Translations under genes and position numbers: made by a program
In this document: piece by piece, positions 6,573 through 32,979 of the stretch
Position numbering within the stretch: position 1 is the first letter of the stretch
Layout: every line of letters begins with the position of its first letter
Assembly (NCBI RefSeq): GCF_004362805.1
Contig: NZ_SNYF01000008.1
Coordinates: 186,001 to 250,000, forward strand
From: Algoriphagus boseongensis
GTDB lineage: Bacteria > Bacteroidota > Bacteroidia > Cytophagales > Cyclobacteriaceae
DNA: 64,000 nt
Reading direction: 5' to 3'
Notes under the pieces: model-generated
Databases searched by the model: none
The model's input: the letters and a program-made list of their open reading frames with translations, nothing else
Told to the model about the DNA's origin: nothing

Positions 6573-7631
6573 ATGAATCTTCAGAATCCAGCAAGTTGGA
6601 AGTATAAACTTTCAAATTCCCAGCAGATCGGGGGAATAGAAACCTCTGTTGTGGATAATGGAGCAGGAAGAGGAGTTAGGATTGCTTGGGTGAATACAGG
6701 AACAGGCCTTCGCTATAAGCTGATTCTTGACCGGGGAATGGATATCCTCGATGCTTTTTTTAATGAAAACAGCCTTGCCTGGATTTCGCATGCAGGAATG
6801 ACTGCCCCACAACCATTTTCCAACAAAGGAATAGACTGGCTCCGAACTTTCGGTGGGGGATTATTAACCACTTGTGGACTCTCCAATGCAGGTCCGCCGA
6901 ATTCGGATGAGGGAGAAGCCCGTGGTCTTCATGGGAATTATTCCAATACTCCTGCGGAATTGGTGTCCATAAAGCAGCCAGACATTTTCTCGGGAGATTT
7001 GAGTTTTGAGATTGTGGCTAAAGTTCGGGAGACGACCACTTTTGGACCAAGTCTGGAGATGCACAGAAGTATTTCAGGAGTCCTCGGATCGCCCGAAATT
7101 CGGATAAAAGATACTGTTATAAATAGAGGGAATTCGGCAGCTCCTCATATGCTGTTGTATCACATCAATTGCGGCTGGCCTTTGATCGATGAGGGAACTC
7201 GGATCGTTTGGCAAGGTGAAAAAAAACCGAAAGCTACTGATGCGAATAACACTGACTTCAACCGCAAGTATGAATTTACCCGCTGCGCTGCCCCGATGGA
7301 TGAGCATTCAGGCTTTGGGGAAGATGTGGCATTTATTGATCCAAAAGCAGATTCAAATGATCGGGTGATTTGTGGCTATGCCAATGATGAATTGAGGTTG
7401 GCTTTGAAGATCACATTTTCCAAAACACAAATGCCTTGGCTGATCAATTGGCAACATTGGGGGAAAAATGAATATGTCACAGCCCTGGAGCCTGCTACGC
7501 ATCCACCGATTGGGCAGGCTGCTGCAAGGGAAAATGGAACCTTGATTCTTTTGGAACCTGGAGAAAGTCGAACTTATGATTTGCTCCTTGAAGTGCTCAC
7601 AGGAGAAAAAGTAAAGGAGTTTAAAGTTTAA
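6573..7631 (+). CDS. DUF4432 family protein (galactose-mutarotase-like fold)
   Basis: A 352-residue cytoplasmic protein without signal peptide. The block LDRGMDILDAFFNENSLAW near residue 50, the GLSNAGPPN and HGNYSNTPAEL segments near 110-130 and the late His-containing LLYHINCGWPL near 192 fit the DUF4432 family, which shares the aldose-1-epimerase fold. Members occur in sugar operons; some may act on sugar epimers or keto-sugars, but the reaction is not established here. It opens a four-gene plus-strand run (DUF4432, cupin, TIM barrel, Gfo/Idh), preceded by the recurring GGCAGGATAG motif. Family confidence is good, function is open. Confidence 0.8.
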   Translation: MNLQNPASWKYKLSNSQQIGGIETSVVDNGAGRGVRIAWVNTGTGLRYKLILDRGMDILDAFFNENSLAWISHAGMTAPQPFSNKGIDWLRTFGGGLLTTCGLSNAGPPNSDEGEARGLHGNYSNTPAELVSIKQPDIFSGDLSFEIVAKVRETTTFGPSLEMHRSISGVLGSPEIRIKDTVINRGNSAAPHMLLYHINCGWPLIDEGTRIVWQGEKKPKATDANNTDFNRKYEFTRCAAPMDEHSGFGEDVAFIDPKADSNDRVICGYANDELRLALKITFSKTQMPWLINWQHWGKNEYVTALEPATHPPIGQAAARENGTLILLEPGESRTYDLLLEVLTGEKVKEFKV

Positions 7632-29331: not shown

Positions 29332-30651
29332 CTACCCTTTAGGCAAAACCCATGGTTCCCGATAGCTAGGCCAGACCAGTTCATTGGCCGCTTTGTTCCC
29401 TTCAAATTCCCGTTTTGCATCATTCCAAATTAATTCCTCTGCCCCAACCCGAGCGGCGATATTGGGAATATGGGCATGAAGTGCCGCGATTCTCCCAGCT
29501 TCTGGAGGGCAAATAGTTTGGTTTCGGGTTTTGATGCATTCCACAAAATTGGCCACATGGAGGTTATGGGATTCCTTCATGCCTTCCAGTTTTTTGGCTT
29601 CGATCTTTGGTGCTTTTGCCTCGGGGTCCCATTCTGGATAGATTTCATATCCATTTCGATTAACGACTAAGGTTCCTTTTTCCCCTACATATCCTATCCC
29701 ATAAGGTTTTCCATACGGGCCAGTTTGTAGTCCACCATTCATGTCGTAGTTAATCAAAAAGTCTTTTTTAGGATATAGGACATTCATCGTGTCAAAGGTA
29801 TCCCGATCCCGATTTTCCAGATTGACATTACTGGCATAGGTAAGTACCCTGCTCGGAGCGGCTGGATTTTCCTCGATCCAGATCGCCATATCCAATAAAT
29901 GGACTCCCCAGTCTGACATTAGCCCTCCTCCATAATCCCAAAAATGCCTCCAGCTACCATGGAATCGATTGGGATTAAAGTCTCTCTTCGGGGCAGGGCC
30001 TAGCCAAAAATCATAATCCACTCCATCCGGGACGGGTGTTGGGGATTTCTTCAGATTACCCAAACCGTAGTTGAAATTGGACCAGATATTCACTTTCCGG
30101 ATTTTGCCCAAATACCCGCTTTTGACAAGTTCCCTGGATTCGATAAAGGCCTGTCCGGAGCGCTGCTGCTGACCAACCTGCATGATTCGGCCATAGTTGG
30201 ATGCAGCCTGTGCCATCAGGTCGCATTCTCCGATCGAGTTAGCCATAGGTTTTTCTACATAGACGTCCTTTCCTGCTTCACATGCCGCAGTGGCTATCAG
30301 ACAATGCCAATGGTCAGGCGTACCAATGATGACGGCATCCAAATCCTTTTTCTCCAGAAGCTTTCTAAAATCCGTAAATCGCTCCGGAGATTTACCGGTT
30401 AAATCATTCACCTCCTTTATCCGTCGATCCAATACGTTCTGATCAATATCGCATATTCCTGCACAGACCACTTCGGGTAAGGCAAGGTGATGGCGAAGAA
30501 TTCCAAAACCCATATTGTTGGCGCCAATAAGACCTACTCGGATTTGATCACTTGGAGCTATCCGCCTTTTGGCTTGAAGTAAGGCTGGGGAAGCTAAAAT
30601 TCCTGCTGTAGTCAAGGCAGAATATTTAATAAATCTTCGTCTTGGATTCAT
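29332..30651 (-). CDS. Secreted Gfo/Idh/MocA family oxidoreductase with Tat-type signal
   Basis: A 439-residue protein. MNPRRRFIKYSA is a twin-arginine leader, as expected for an enzyme exported with its dinucleotide. The Rossmann motif VGLIGANNMGFGILRHH lies near residue 40, VYVEKPMANS near 130 and RFHGSWRHFWDYGGGLMSDWG near 232, the last being typical of the secreted subgroup. It likely oxidises or reduces a sugar in the periplasm and could form 3-keto-glycosides for DUF1080 enzymes. It is transcribed away from the structured-RNA region. Confidence 0.9.
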   Translation of the reverse strand: MNPRRRFIKYSALTTAGILASPALLQAKRRIAPSDQIRVGLIGANNMGFGILRHHLALPEVVCAGICDIDQNVLDRRIKEVNDLTGKSPERFTDFRKLLEKKDLDAVIIGTPDHWHCLIATAACEAGKDVYVEKPMANSIGECDLMAQAASNYGRIMQVGQQQRSGQAFIESRELVKSGYLGKIRKVNIWSNFNYGLGNLKKSPTPVPDGVDYDFWLGPAPKRDFNPNRFHGSWRHFWDYGGGLMSDWGVHLLDMAIWIEENPAAPSRVLTYASNVNLENRDRDTFDTMNVLYPKKDFLINYDMNGGLQTGPYGKPYGIGYVGEKGTLVVNRNGYEIYPEWDPEAKAPKIEAKKLEGMKESHNLHVANFVECIKTRNQTICPPEAGRIAALHAHIPNIAARVGAEELIWNDAKREFEGNKAANELVWPSYREPWVLPKG

Positions 30652-30900
30652 GGGATTTTGGTTTTGGGTCCTATTGTTTGGAATAAGTTAATGGGAATCG
30701 GCAAAGAATAAAAGGGGAGGAAGGTAGTGCGAATTAGGATTTGCCAAATAAGGTTCTGGAAATCCCGGGATTTTGTGGATAAGTCAAAAATTACGGTGAA
30801 CAACCTGTTCTTTTACATAAAATTTTGTGGGGGAAAATTGTGGGAAAATAAGGTTTGGAAAACTTGTATTCAGGTAGAATATGATGCAACTTTGATTATA
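30652..30900. other. Intergenic spacer upstream of the structured RNA
   Basis: Holds the minus-strand promoter area of the Gfo/Idh gene and the probable promoter of the RNA. I see no protein gene. One perfect DnaA-box-like 9-mer (tgtggataa, near 30774) is present but isolated. Confidence 0.5.
30864..30894 (+). promoter_or_regulatory. Bacteroidota-type promoter for the structured RNA
   Basis: ttg at 30864-30866, a 20-base spacer, then caactttg at 30887-30894. This matches the Bacteroidota consensus (TTTG about 19-21 bases before TAnnTTTG) except for the first base of the -7 box. Initiation would be near 30900, about 20 bases before the first hairpin. Confidence 0.45.
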
Positions 30901-30996
30901 CCAAATGAGAGATAAAAGGCCGGGAATACGATCCCGGATTCAAGTTTGAAAGTTTGAGATCGGGCGCAAAGGGGAACAAATCTTCGGAAGAGTTTC

Positions 30997-31420
30997 TGAG
31001 ACGGGTAACCGCAGAAGTGCCAACAACGATTAGACTGAGTTTGAAAAGTCTTAGGACAATTCAAATAACTTGGCGTGAAAGACTGGAAGTGCAAACGGAA
31101 GGTTGAAAGAGGTAACTCCAAAAGCGCAAAACAAGTGAGTCAGTCGGCTGAGTTTCTTCGGAAACAAAACGCCAATCGGGCACAAAGGAATCGAGGCTTA
31201 GCTGCATCGATTTGAAACGGACCACCGCAGAAGTGCTACACTAGATCGGCCCTGAAAATGCTCCCAGAGCAGATTCGGGATACCTGACAGGAAGGAGCTT
31301 TTAGAAATAAAAGTTTGAGATGGGCAACCGCAGAACTGTGACACTGGTATCTAAAAAGGGACAATCCTTTCGAGGAGGCTTCAAACATCAGAATTTTGAC
31401 CTGGGCAACTGGGAAAAGTC
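30997..31420 (+). repeat. Five-copy tandem RNA core repeat
   Basis: Cores start at 30997, 31104, 31213, 31316 and 31397, giving spacings of 107, 109, 103 and 81 bases. The shared pattern is TGARA, then YGGGY or similar, then AACCGCAGAAGTGC. Copies A and C share 17 of 20 bases over 31001-31020 and 31217-31236; A and D share TGAGA, GGG and AACCGCAGAA; B is weaker (17 of 24) and E weakest (about 13 of 24). A further core-like element (tgagatcgggcgcaaagg) begins at 30955. The 5' flank GGGCRCAAAGG is shared by A (30962) and C (31178), with a poorer form in B (31071). Confidence 0.7.
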
Positions 31421-31470
31421 TTTGAACAGTAGTTTGGAATAAGTTGAAGGCTATGGTTTTCAGCTTATTA

Positions 31471-31512
31471 AACGGGAAGATTTCGCTAGAAACTCTTCCC
31501 GTTTTTGTTTTT
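31471..31512 (+). terminator. Intrinsic terminator ending the structured RNA
   Basis: A perfect 10-bp stem, aacgggaaga (31471-31480) with tcttcccgtt (31494-31503), has a 13-nt loop and is followed by tttgtttttt. It fixes the plus strand as the transcribed strand. It ends 25 bases before the sulfatase start. Confidence 0.88.
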
Positions 31513-31528
31513 TAGGCTAATAGCCTAA
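31512..31528 (+). promoter_or_regulatory. Hairpin just before the sulfatase start codon
   Basis: ttaggct-aat-agcctaa is a perfect 7-bp hairpin ending 8 bases before ATG 31537. It would sit where the ribosome binds, so it could dampen translation or react to transcription stopping at the adjacent terminator. The role is inferred. Confidence 0.45.
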
Positions 31529-31536
31529 ATTCCAGA

Positions 31537-32979
31537 ATGAAGCACTGTCTGGTTATCTTTTTAGCATTGGTTTTATTTTCATTTCAAGGGAAAAACCAAA
31601 GCGAAGCTCCTCTGAAATCTCCCCCAAATGTGATTTTTATTCTAGCCGATGATTTAGGTTACGGGGATTTAGGCTTTTTAGGTCAGCAGTACATAGAGAC
31701 TCCAAACATCGATCGATTGGCTGCTGAGGGAATGGTTTTCACCAACCATTATTCCGGAGCCACAGTCTGTGCACCATCCCGATCAGCTTTTATGACTGGA
31801 TTGCATACCGGACATACCCCGATTCGAGGGAATTCGGAAGTTCAACCTGAGGGTCAATATCCGATGCCGGATACCTTGATGACTATTTCAAAAGTTTTCC
31901 AAAAAGCAGGTTATGTCACTGGAGCCTTTGGGAAATGGGGATTAGGGATGAACGAAACTACAGGCGATCCGCTCAATCAAGGGTTTGGAGAATTTTATGG
32001 CTACCTCTGCCAGCGGTATGCGCACCGCTACTATCCTGCCTACCTCTGGCAAAACGGAGTTCAGGTAAACTTGCCTGGAAACGATTGGACGAATAAGGTT
32101 ACCTATGCTCCGGATTTGATCCAAAAGGAATCTCTGGCTTTTATTGAGAAAAATAAGGATATGCCTTTCTTTCTTTTTATGCCTATCGTCACCCCTCATG
32201 CAGAATTGGCAGCGCCTGATGATGGGCTTTTCCAGAAATACAGAAATAAATTCGGAGAAGAAAAACCTCATTTGGCTCCTCCAGGTGGGGATTATGGACC
32301 TGAGATGAAAATTCCCGGCTACCAAAGTGAGCCTTATCCGCATGCTGCTTTTGCTGCCATGGTGGAGCGAATCGATCGATATGTAGGGGAGGTTGTTTCG
32401 AAGTTGGAAGAATTGGGATTGAGCGAAAATACGCTGATTGTTTTCACCTCAGATAATGGTGCTCACCGAGAGGGTGGTGCCGATCCGGACTTTTTTGATT
32501 CCAACGGGCCGTTTAGAGGATATAAAAGGGATTTGTATGAAGGAGGAATTCATGTGCCGCTCGTGGTCAAATGGCCAGGAAAAATCAAAGCCAATTCCAG
32601 TTCGGATCATGTTTCTGCCTTTTGGGATTGGTTGCCTACTTTTGCTGAACTTTTAGGCGAAAAATCTCCAGATGGTATTGATGGAATTTCTTTGGTTCCG
32701 ACTCTTCTAGGAAAAGGAAATCAAGCGGAGCATGAAACTTTATACTGGGAATTCCATGAATTGGGCGGAAGGCAGGCGCTGAGAAAAGGAGACTGGAAGT
32801 TGGTCAAATATCAAGTCAAGGATTCCTCAAAAACGTCTGTTGAGCTTTTTGATCTTAAAAATGATCCGGGGGAGCTGACAGATTTGGCAGCCCAAAATCC
32901 CCAAATCGTGGAGGAGCTTGAAGTTTTATTGGAGAAATCTCGTTGGTCCAATCCGGTATTCAACCTTTTTGAAAATTAA
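31537..32979 (+). CDS. Sulfatase of the arylsulfatase A type (formylglycine-dependent)
   Basis: A 480-residue secreted sulfatase with a signal peptide (about residues 1-17). ADDLGYGDLG at 37-46 gives the metal-binding Asp pair, and CAPSRSAFMTG at 78-88 is the C-x-P-S-R site in which Cys78 must be changed to formylglycine by a maturase not present in this window. FVFTSDNGAHREGG-type residues near 303-316 and GPFRGYKRDLYEGG near 326 complete the site. It removes sulfate from a glycan or aryl ester, fitting marine polysaccharide use. It starts 25 bases after the RNA terminator. Confidence 0.93.
   Translation: MKHCLVIFLALVLFSFQGKNQSEAPLKSPPNVIFILADDLGYGDLGFLGQQYIETPNIDRLAAEGMVFTNHYSGATVCAPSRSAFMTGLHTGHTPIRGNSEVQPEGQYPMPDTLMTISKVFQKAGYVTGAFGKWGLGMNETTGDPLNQGFGEFYGYLCQRYAHRYYPAYLWQNGVQVNLPGNDWTNKVTYAPDLIQKESLAFIEKNKDMPFFLFMPIVTPHAELAAPDDGLFQKYRNKFGEEKPHLAPPGGDYGPEMKIPGYQSEPYPHAAFAAMVERIDRYVGEVVSKLEELGLSENTLIVFTSDNGAHREGGADPDFFDSNGPFRGYKRDLYEGGIHVPLVVKWPGKIKANSSSDHVSAFWDWLPTFAELLGEKSPDGIDGISLVPTLLGKGNQAEHETLYWEFHELGGRQALRKGDWKLVKYQVKDSSKTSVELFDLKNDPGELTDLAAQNPQIVEELEVLLEKSRWSNPVFNLFEN

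Follow-up and report, generated by a model that had tools for sequence, protein, structure and literature searches.

The 64,000-nt stretch of Algoriphagus boseongensis DNA analysed herein (the window) carries, between a Gfo/Idh gene and a sulfatase gene, a region at 30902-31512 on the + strand that very probably represents a stand-alone, non-coding RNA gene of Algoriphagus belonging to an undescribed class. A preliminary description made from the single sequence had proposed a large RNA here, structured and modular, with no protein gene; the comparative evidence given below, together with the lack of an Rfam match, backs that proposal. Judging from the aligned copies, the conserved unit begins some 130 nt upstream of the RNA, at a DnaA-box-like array that the preliminary description had missed. 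The predicted features of the unit are as follows (A2, A4 and A5 are alignments described below).

30774..30782, + strand: DnaA-box-like 9-mer TGTGGATAA, a strict match, lying 128 nt ahead of the RNA start; the copies keep its position and orientation
30826..30847, + strand: two direct box-like repeats, TGTGGGGGA (30826) and TGTGGGAAA (30839), 13 nt apart, from the upstream alignment
30864..30894, + strand: Bacteroidota-type promoter, with -33 TTG at 30864-30866 and -7 element CAACTTTG at 30887-30894, from the upstream alignment and the -7 motif count
30902..31512, + strand: non-coding RNA gene, long (five-module) form, from homologue search, alignment and covariation
30902..30918, + strand: conserved 5' block CAAATGAGAGATAAAAG, column identity 0.956; motif reused as a search probe
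30902-30906, + strand: 5' strand of the terminal helix P0, pairing with 31432-31436
30920..30937, + strand: hairpin H1, CCGGGA/TCCCGG with hexaloop ATACGA (alignment A5)
30963..31021, + strand: M1, three-way junction, P1 GGCGC/GTGCC (alignments including A5 and A2)
31073..31127, + strand: M2, three-way junction, P1 GCGT/GCGC; 12 of 17 pairs with double changes
31180..31236, + strand: M3, three-way junction, P1 GCAC/GTGC; 7 of 16 pairs with double changes
31287..31339, + strand: M4, three-way junction, P1 ACAG/CTGT; 12 of 16 pairs with double changes
31357..31421, + strand: M5, divergent, limits approximate; hairpin CCTGG-GCAA-CTGGG, then AAAAG (alignment; helix 1 of A4)
31426..31437, + strand: conserved 3' block, column identity 0.958
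31438..31469, + strand: 3' stem-loop; 14 of 14 pairs with double changes in A4
31470..31512, + strand: intrinsic terminator, inverted repeat 31470-31483/31491-31504 followed by a T run

The absence of a protein gene was confirmed, in that no + strand ORF of at least 60 aa lies inside 30902-31512. A minus-strand ORF of 83 aa (30870-31121) overlaps the region; of 28 relatives, only 2 keep its aligned stretch open, and in 23 the length there differs by a number that is not a multiple of 3. This ORF is thus not conserved, and no ORF accounts for the RNA region. The minimum free energy of the region is -179.4 kcal/mol, with a folding z of -3.88 on the + strand against -0.99 on the - strand (only 20 shuffles each). 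When the RNA was compared with its own genome, L002, L003 and L005-L008 were chance-level matches, and L004 was the opposite strand of the RNA's own terminator.

The start of the RNA is placed, from the upstream motifs, near 30902, 3' of the -7 element CAACTTTG. The promoter-like site noted earlier is present, though it is better described as a promoter of the Bacteroidota type than as a sigma-70 one, for which a scan gave two sites in the region against 1.3 expected. The Bacteroidota -7 consensus is TAnnTTTG, and among 89 RNA copies, which include close relatives and are therefore not independent, NAnnTTT[AGC] ends 3-9 nt before the RNA in 76 (shuffled mean 7.3). The proposed terminator also survived comparison: the stem at 31470-31504 is followed by a T run, and its 15 pairs are conserved (97.9% standard across 28 sequences). 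A simple terminator scan of the window did not return this stem.

The two ends of the RNA are predicted to pair with one another. In the window, GTTTG at 31432-31436 faces CAAAT at 30902-30906, where the usual pair is CAAGT/GCTTG; by comparison of the copies, the window's CAAAU/GUUUG is a compensatory change relative to CAAGU/GCUUG. This P0 pairing is nearly invariant, with the window's own as the one clear double change: CAAGU occurs with GCUUG or ACUUG in 81 of the 87 copies whose ends were both read by pattern, and two of the six exceptions look like wrong picks of the 3' pattern. The hairpin H1 has double changes at five of its six pairs and is 97.9% paired in A5.

Between these ends lie the five 24-nt cores of the preliminary description, recovered exactly at 30997, 31104, 31213, 31316 and 31397. 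Cores 2-5 match the first at 17, 20, 20 and 13 of 24 positions, that at 31397 being weak on sequence alone; at a threshold of at least 16 of 24 matches, the core family numbers five, where 100 Markov-shuffled copies average 2.18 and never exceed 3. Four of the five related modules (M1-M4) are clear three-way junctions that run in the same order, with a short closing helix P1, (A/G)AAG, a variable hairpin P2, GARA, P3, and CAGAA or a near variant. P3 is here a three-pair hairpin whose four-base loop is only loosely GNRA, and the junctions between the helices are A/G-rich and nearly invariant. M1 exemplifies the series with AAAG, a P2 capped by a UUCG loop, GAGA, P3 as CGG[GUAA]CCG and CAGAA, and M5 retains mainly the P3-like hairpin. 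The core starts of M1 and M3 are 216 nt apart and those of M2 and M4 212 nt, and each of these pairs shares extra sequence, which suggests that a two-module unit was tandemly duplicated (M1-M2 to M3-M4).

The best BLAST match is genome G010 (92%); BLAST matched 74 of 145 genomes at E <= 0.1, many by chance, and an exact module pattern found 17 stretches, 16 of them named Algoriphagus. From up to 30 BLAST places, 28 near-full-length genus sequences, the window's own included, entered the main alignment, the partial loci L035 and L036 being dropped. Across these 28, the 169 predicted pairs have 94.1% standard cells and 96 of them show double changes. With seven near-duplicates removed, the remaining 21 sequences gave an alifold value of -236.8, where 40 column shuffles averaged -95.4 (sd 6.9, z = -20.6), and the opposite strand folds less well (-166.7). 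The cores and pairings are kept in homologues, as the preliminary description required of a selected RNA, with a mean column identity of 0.887 in the cores against 0.756 elsewhere and strong covariation.

The family-wide alignment A5 (40 rows) was assembled from short copies, 43 of which were reduced to 37 by removal of six near-duplicates; two longer copies and one second copy were left out and six long forms added. In A5, 19 of 22 pairs are doubly changed, a number reached by 0 of 500 shuffles, and sliding the pairing by one column lowers the paired cells from 89.8% to 52.7% or less. Alignments A2 (L013 and L027 omitted, as in A3) and A4 (40 rows, 10 of 50 candidate rows omitted) agree with A5 on most covariation measures; the exception in A2 is the count of further pair types, which is not above shuffles (149 of 500), and in A4 the number of doubly changed pairs is reached by 2 of 500. 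Because the structure was derived from these very alignments, all pair counts are somewhat biased in its favour.

The preliminary description could fit the region to no known RNA class, and this still holds, with no match in the window at the curated gathering threshold of Rfam 15 (4227 models). A relaxed Rfam search of 30600-31600 returned 10 matches at E <= 10, all far below the thresholds; relaxed searches gave no match over the RNA at 19 genus or family loci, and Rfam gave none at E <= 1 at 17 further 5'-motif loci (15 outside the family). Neither the covariance models of OLE, ROOL and GOLLD, themselves Rfam members, nor the 6S and 6S-flavo models matched in the window or in these 36 relatives' loci. 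Type III toxin-antitoxin RNAs are near-identical tandem repeats next to a toxin gene; this class was considered and rejected, the cores here being 50-83% alike and no gene family recurring beside the RNA.

The RNA is common in its genus and varies in size beyond it. Covariance model R1 found it in 56 of 72 genus genomes at E <= 0.1 (55 at E <= 1e-5) and in 44 of 245 genomes sampled from the family (36 at E <= 1e-5, nine of which belong to the own genus); these are under-counts, since model searches score only the top candidates per genome. Twelve of the 36 family-sample genomes have two or three RNA places (E <= 1e-5), which in eight lie 0.8-2 kb apart. Six loci (L135, L137, L140, L141, L148, L149) each hold two RNA copies 0.7-2 kb apart, and in several of them ordinary genes separate the two. 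Outside part of Algoriphagus, and across the family, the RNA takes a form of ~290 nt with one full module; at L125 and L126 it measures ~390 nt and a second module is present. The simpler direction would be growth, within the genus, of this shorter and wider-spread RNA into the five-module form (~610 nt). Since L120 has the short form at the same Gfo/Idh-RNA-sulfatase locus where the window has the long one, module number appears to have changed in place there.

At the level of the class, the 3' model R3 matched (E <= 0.01) 18 of 395 sampled genomes, of which 14 lie outside the family, and the exact 5' 17-mer occurs in 16 of 390 (three for a reversed-pattern control). Thirteen genomes, 11 outside the family, were found by both probes at the same places, and the 3' block is present in 16 of the 17 5'-motif loci (15 outside the family), L182 being the one without it. 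The class-level carriers fall in families f23, f31, f44 and f67, with f75 added by the 5' motif only. These class-level RNAs are 253-714 nt long (12 with the terminator placed by pattern), with the same ends and very different middles. In family f44 (L186-L190, L197), the 3' block lies ~465-540 nt from the 5' end, and these loci are rich in GAAAGG-type motifs and in hairpins that do not resemble the Algoriphagus modules. In a phylum sample R3 matched own-genus genomes only (3 of 296 at E <= 0.001), so the spread outside the family is patchy. We do not claim the weak R2 matches in six genomes from other families of the order (best E 2e-5 to 0.008), nor, on R3 alone, the weakest R3 matches of the class sample, such as that in G669. 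In viral contigs the exact module pattern had no match, and the 5' motif occurred in 20 viral stretches, none with the 3' motif within 1,200 nt, which fits chance.

The genes beside the RNA vary in kind (sulfatase, GntP permease, MBOAT, glyoxalase, lumazine-binding protein, PAP2, TonB receptor, LytB), and promoter and terminator travel with the RNA across these differing neighbourhoods. In the locus comparison, no gene family was shared by the RNA's neighbourhoods in different genera. Of 34 neighbour proteins compared with Pfam, a subset of those beside RNA loci and some without a Pfam match, none was a transposase, reverse transcriptase or TnpB/IscB, the last being the adjacent gene expected of an omega/reRNA guide RNA.

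Several members of the genus appear to lack the RNA. A retest with more candidates per genome, from which three incomplete genomes (G013, G050, G054) were omitted, gave no convincing RNA match in 14 of 16 genomes (best E 0.018), several of them single-contig. The neighbour gene f1 (SMP-30/gluconolactonase-like) is present in 11 of these 14, and in eight of those no more than 60 nt separate the f1 stop codon from the start of the following ORF (90 codons or longer). At L245, L246, L248 and L249 that ORF is f8, which is 54-58% identical to the window's copy and, on our own reading of its sequence, acetyltransferase-like (no Pfam match); at the RNA-bearing loci L121, L129 and L130, f1 and f8 lie ~470 nt apart with the RNA unit between them. 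By this comparison, the four RNA-less loci are empty sites. The other seven f1-bearing, RNA-less genomes have differing surroundings, and the comparison as a whole fits gain or loss alike. At L238 (G070), also RNA-less, a gap of ~660 nt without a tight junction lies downstream of f1 and is a possible remnant.

The array at which the unit begins is built on a 9-mer that we take to be the well-known DnaA box. Strict matches to TGTGGATAA/TTATCCACA occur in the 64-kb window at 6650 and 30774 only. In the 200 nt upstream of the 89 distinct copies, 9-mers of the type TGTKNATAA number 98 in forward orientation against one in reverse. At least one forward box is present in 67 of the 89, most densely at -130..-121, -110..-101 and -70..-61, and the box-like sites lie about 60-140 nt upstream of the RNA; the 22 copies without a forward box by the pattern used include L131, L143 and L181. 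An earlier set of 76 copies held 89 boxes against 4.1 (sd 2.0) expected from Markov sequences. Across 41 copies with wide flanks, 36 boxes fall at -150..-100 and 13 at -100..-50, where ~0.2 are expected per 50-nt bin (the far-away rate being 0.0055 per 50-nt bin and copy), and TGTGGRAAA has 11 matches at -150..-50 against ~0.05 expected per 50-nt bin.

The typical layout is TGTGGATAAC-TTTGTGATT, a gap, GTGGAAAAATTGTGGGGAAAT, and then the promoter (-33 TTG, -7 TAnnTTTG) 3-9 nt before the RNA. Boxes at a recurrent position near a promoter are, at the level of sequence, what a DnaA-regulated promoter has. Their position, orientation and spacing make DnaA control of the RNA plausible; that DnaA does govern its transcription falls, in our estimate, just short of an even chance, and another protein could read the same 9-mer.

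No DnaA-type partner peculiar to RNA-bearing genomes was found among 28 genus genomes, 14 of them carrying the RNA and 14 lacking it: each has exactly one PF08299 match over the cut-off, so that no special partner of this type is indicated. The single DnaA C-terminal domain match of the window's own genome (G000), in dnaA, lies at C4:253678-253884, ~3.7 kb past the right end of the window and ~37 kb from the RNA; the distance between RNA and dnaA is 20-37 kb in G010, G016 and G064, ~90 kb in G015, and large in G033 and G036. Elsewhere in G000, three strict TGTGGATAA/TTATCCACA boxes lie in AT-rich intergenic DNA (L265 1498-1603, C8 near 27068) flanked by a transglycosylase gene and a chloride-channel gene. 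Such clusters of three strict boxes occur likewise in G009, G033 and G036, and in all four genomes the cluster is the probable oriC. Two more matches, each of two boxes, occur in G000, and a backward control pattern gave one match in G036 and one in G242.

These observations can be assembled into a working model. With the upstream direct repeats read as DnaA boxes, DnaA bound there would set transcription and couple RNA output to replication or growth. In the transcript, the fixed ends would pair as a terminal helix around a variable number of three-way-junction modules. Nearly invariant junction repeats inside changing hairpins suggest repeated recognition of one partner; each module may thus be a binding platform for the same protein or ligand, in which case the RNA would act in trans as a multi-site scaffold or sponge. 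Module duplication would alter its valency, making module number the evolving variable.

Of this model, the predicted independent RNA with start and stop signals of its own is the best supported. The chain of steps read loosely, with a multi-site RNA that acts in trans and is controlled through the boxes, seems to us nearly as probable as its opposite, and the scaffold or sponge role taken by itself is possible but rather doubtful. More boldly, the locus might be pictured as a replication-coupled RNA machine scattered through the Bacteroidia: a DnaA-controlled promoter would drive a large RNA with fixed ends and an exchangeable, expandable module set, and this RNA, as a multivalent scaffold or a particle of RNA alone, would adjust some cell-cycle or growth process in trans. 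The protein-less cassette of ~400-850 bp would be gained, lost and duplicated as one self-contained piece. This full picture is speculative and, on balance, unlikely.

The main rival to the scaffold or sponge reading is an ornate RNA that assembles into an RNA-only homo-oligomer, its modules serving as intermolecular contacts instead of protein sites. OLE, ROOL and GOLLD form such homo-oligomers according to PMC12286853, and the present RNA shares with them a similar size, an elaborate conserved fold and a free-standing gene without a protein gene; the same source, however, gives raiA, another large RNA, as a monomer. The lack of a match to the OLE, ROOL and GOLLD families of Rfam also counts against the analogy, as does a module number that varies between relatives and is a poor fit to one fixed stoichiometry, and we hold an oligomer of this kind to be decidedly unlikely. 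Less likely again is a replication-associated element, for which datA and priming by ColE1 RNA II are the comparisons, and in which the boxes, the AT-rich promoter and the RNA would form an accessory initiation or DnaA-titration site with the RNA in a controlling part. It would suit boxes in one orientation with recurrent spacing and a whole unit present or absent at one locus; yet the GC skew has no origin-like flip at 30.9 kb, the three-strict-box cluster at L265 is the better oriC candidate, the RNA ends in a terminator and does not run on as a primer, and plasmid and phage records gave no match to one short form (L141).

A cis-acting leader or riboswitch array of the sulfatase gene at 31537, with the terminator as attenuator, is suggested by modules that resemble tandem aptamers and by the RNA lying directly upstream of a same-strand sulfatase gene in the window and at L116, L120 and L127. 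These are, however, the only 4 of 41 loci in which the sulfatase family is the next same-strand gene; at a fifth sulfatase locus, L114, an opposite-strand ORF lies in between, the next ORF is on the other strand in 22 of the 41, and elsewhere neighbours of other kinds occur while RNA and terminator are kept. Cis-leaders have a downstream gene of conserved kind and orientation, which the RNA loci lack, and a gene context that varies in this way leaves the sulfatase leader very improbable. Scarcely credible, finally, is a diverged copy of a housekeeping RNA (6S, RNase P, tmRNA or SRP RNA), which would agree in size range and lack of an ORF. Such RNAs are present in every member of a genus, and the 14 retested genus genomes without the present one argue against an essential housekeeping role, to which are added an architecture and copy number that vary and the lack of an Rfam match in the window (curated) or over the RNA in the 36 relatives' loci (relaxed).

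The locus bears on a sparse field: the large structured RNAs known from bacteria are few, and even for the best-known of them a clear function is still lacking (PMC12286853). The positioned DnaA-box-like array that accompanies the RNA is a regulatory clue, and genus members without the RNA at the same locus, alongside relatives with one, two or five modules, form a natural experiment that makes its role and the meaning of module number directly testable. A search of PMC6429828, PMC8632094 and PMC11109978 by taxon name gave no Cyclobacter- or Algoriphagus-type match. Among the titles and abstract openings searched, which came mostly from outside subscription papers, the RNA class is undescribed and no pairing of DnaA boxes with an RNA appears in this group. 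If DnaA control is real, an ornate RNA would be tied to the replication cycle, a link without printed precedent in the literature searched.

Several known systems offer partial parallels. CsrB/CsrC-type RNAs titrate a protein via many copies of a short GGA hairpin, and like them the present RNA has one motif in many and variable copies on one putatively trans-acting RNA; its repeat unit, by contrast, is a whole three-way junction. With datA and DnaA-regulated loci it shares a cluster of DnaA-box-like sites away from the origin, but here the cluster precedes a conserved RNA promoter, with a distance and orientation that recur. The 6S-flavo RNA (RF01685), a 6S RNA listed for Bacteroidetes in a table of PMC2864571, is likewise non-coding and of the Bacteroidetes, whereas the present RNA does not match its model, is multi-branched and modular, and is absent from 14 retested genus genomes. 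OLE, ROOL and GOLLD are likewise several hundred nt long, with an elaborate conserved secondary structure and a poorly understood function (PMC12286853); the present RNA differs in having no Rfam match, in its repeated three-way-junction modules of varying number, and in its occurrence in Bacteroidia genomes, usually after a DnaA-box-like array. It appears new as an RNA class, and resembles the loose category of large ornate RNAs of unknown function in style only.
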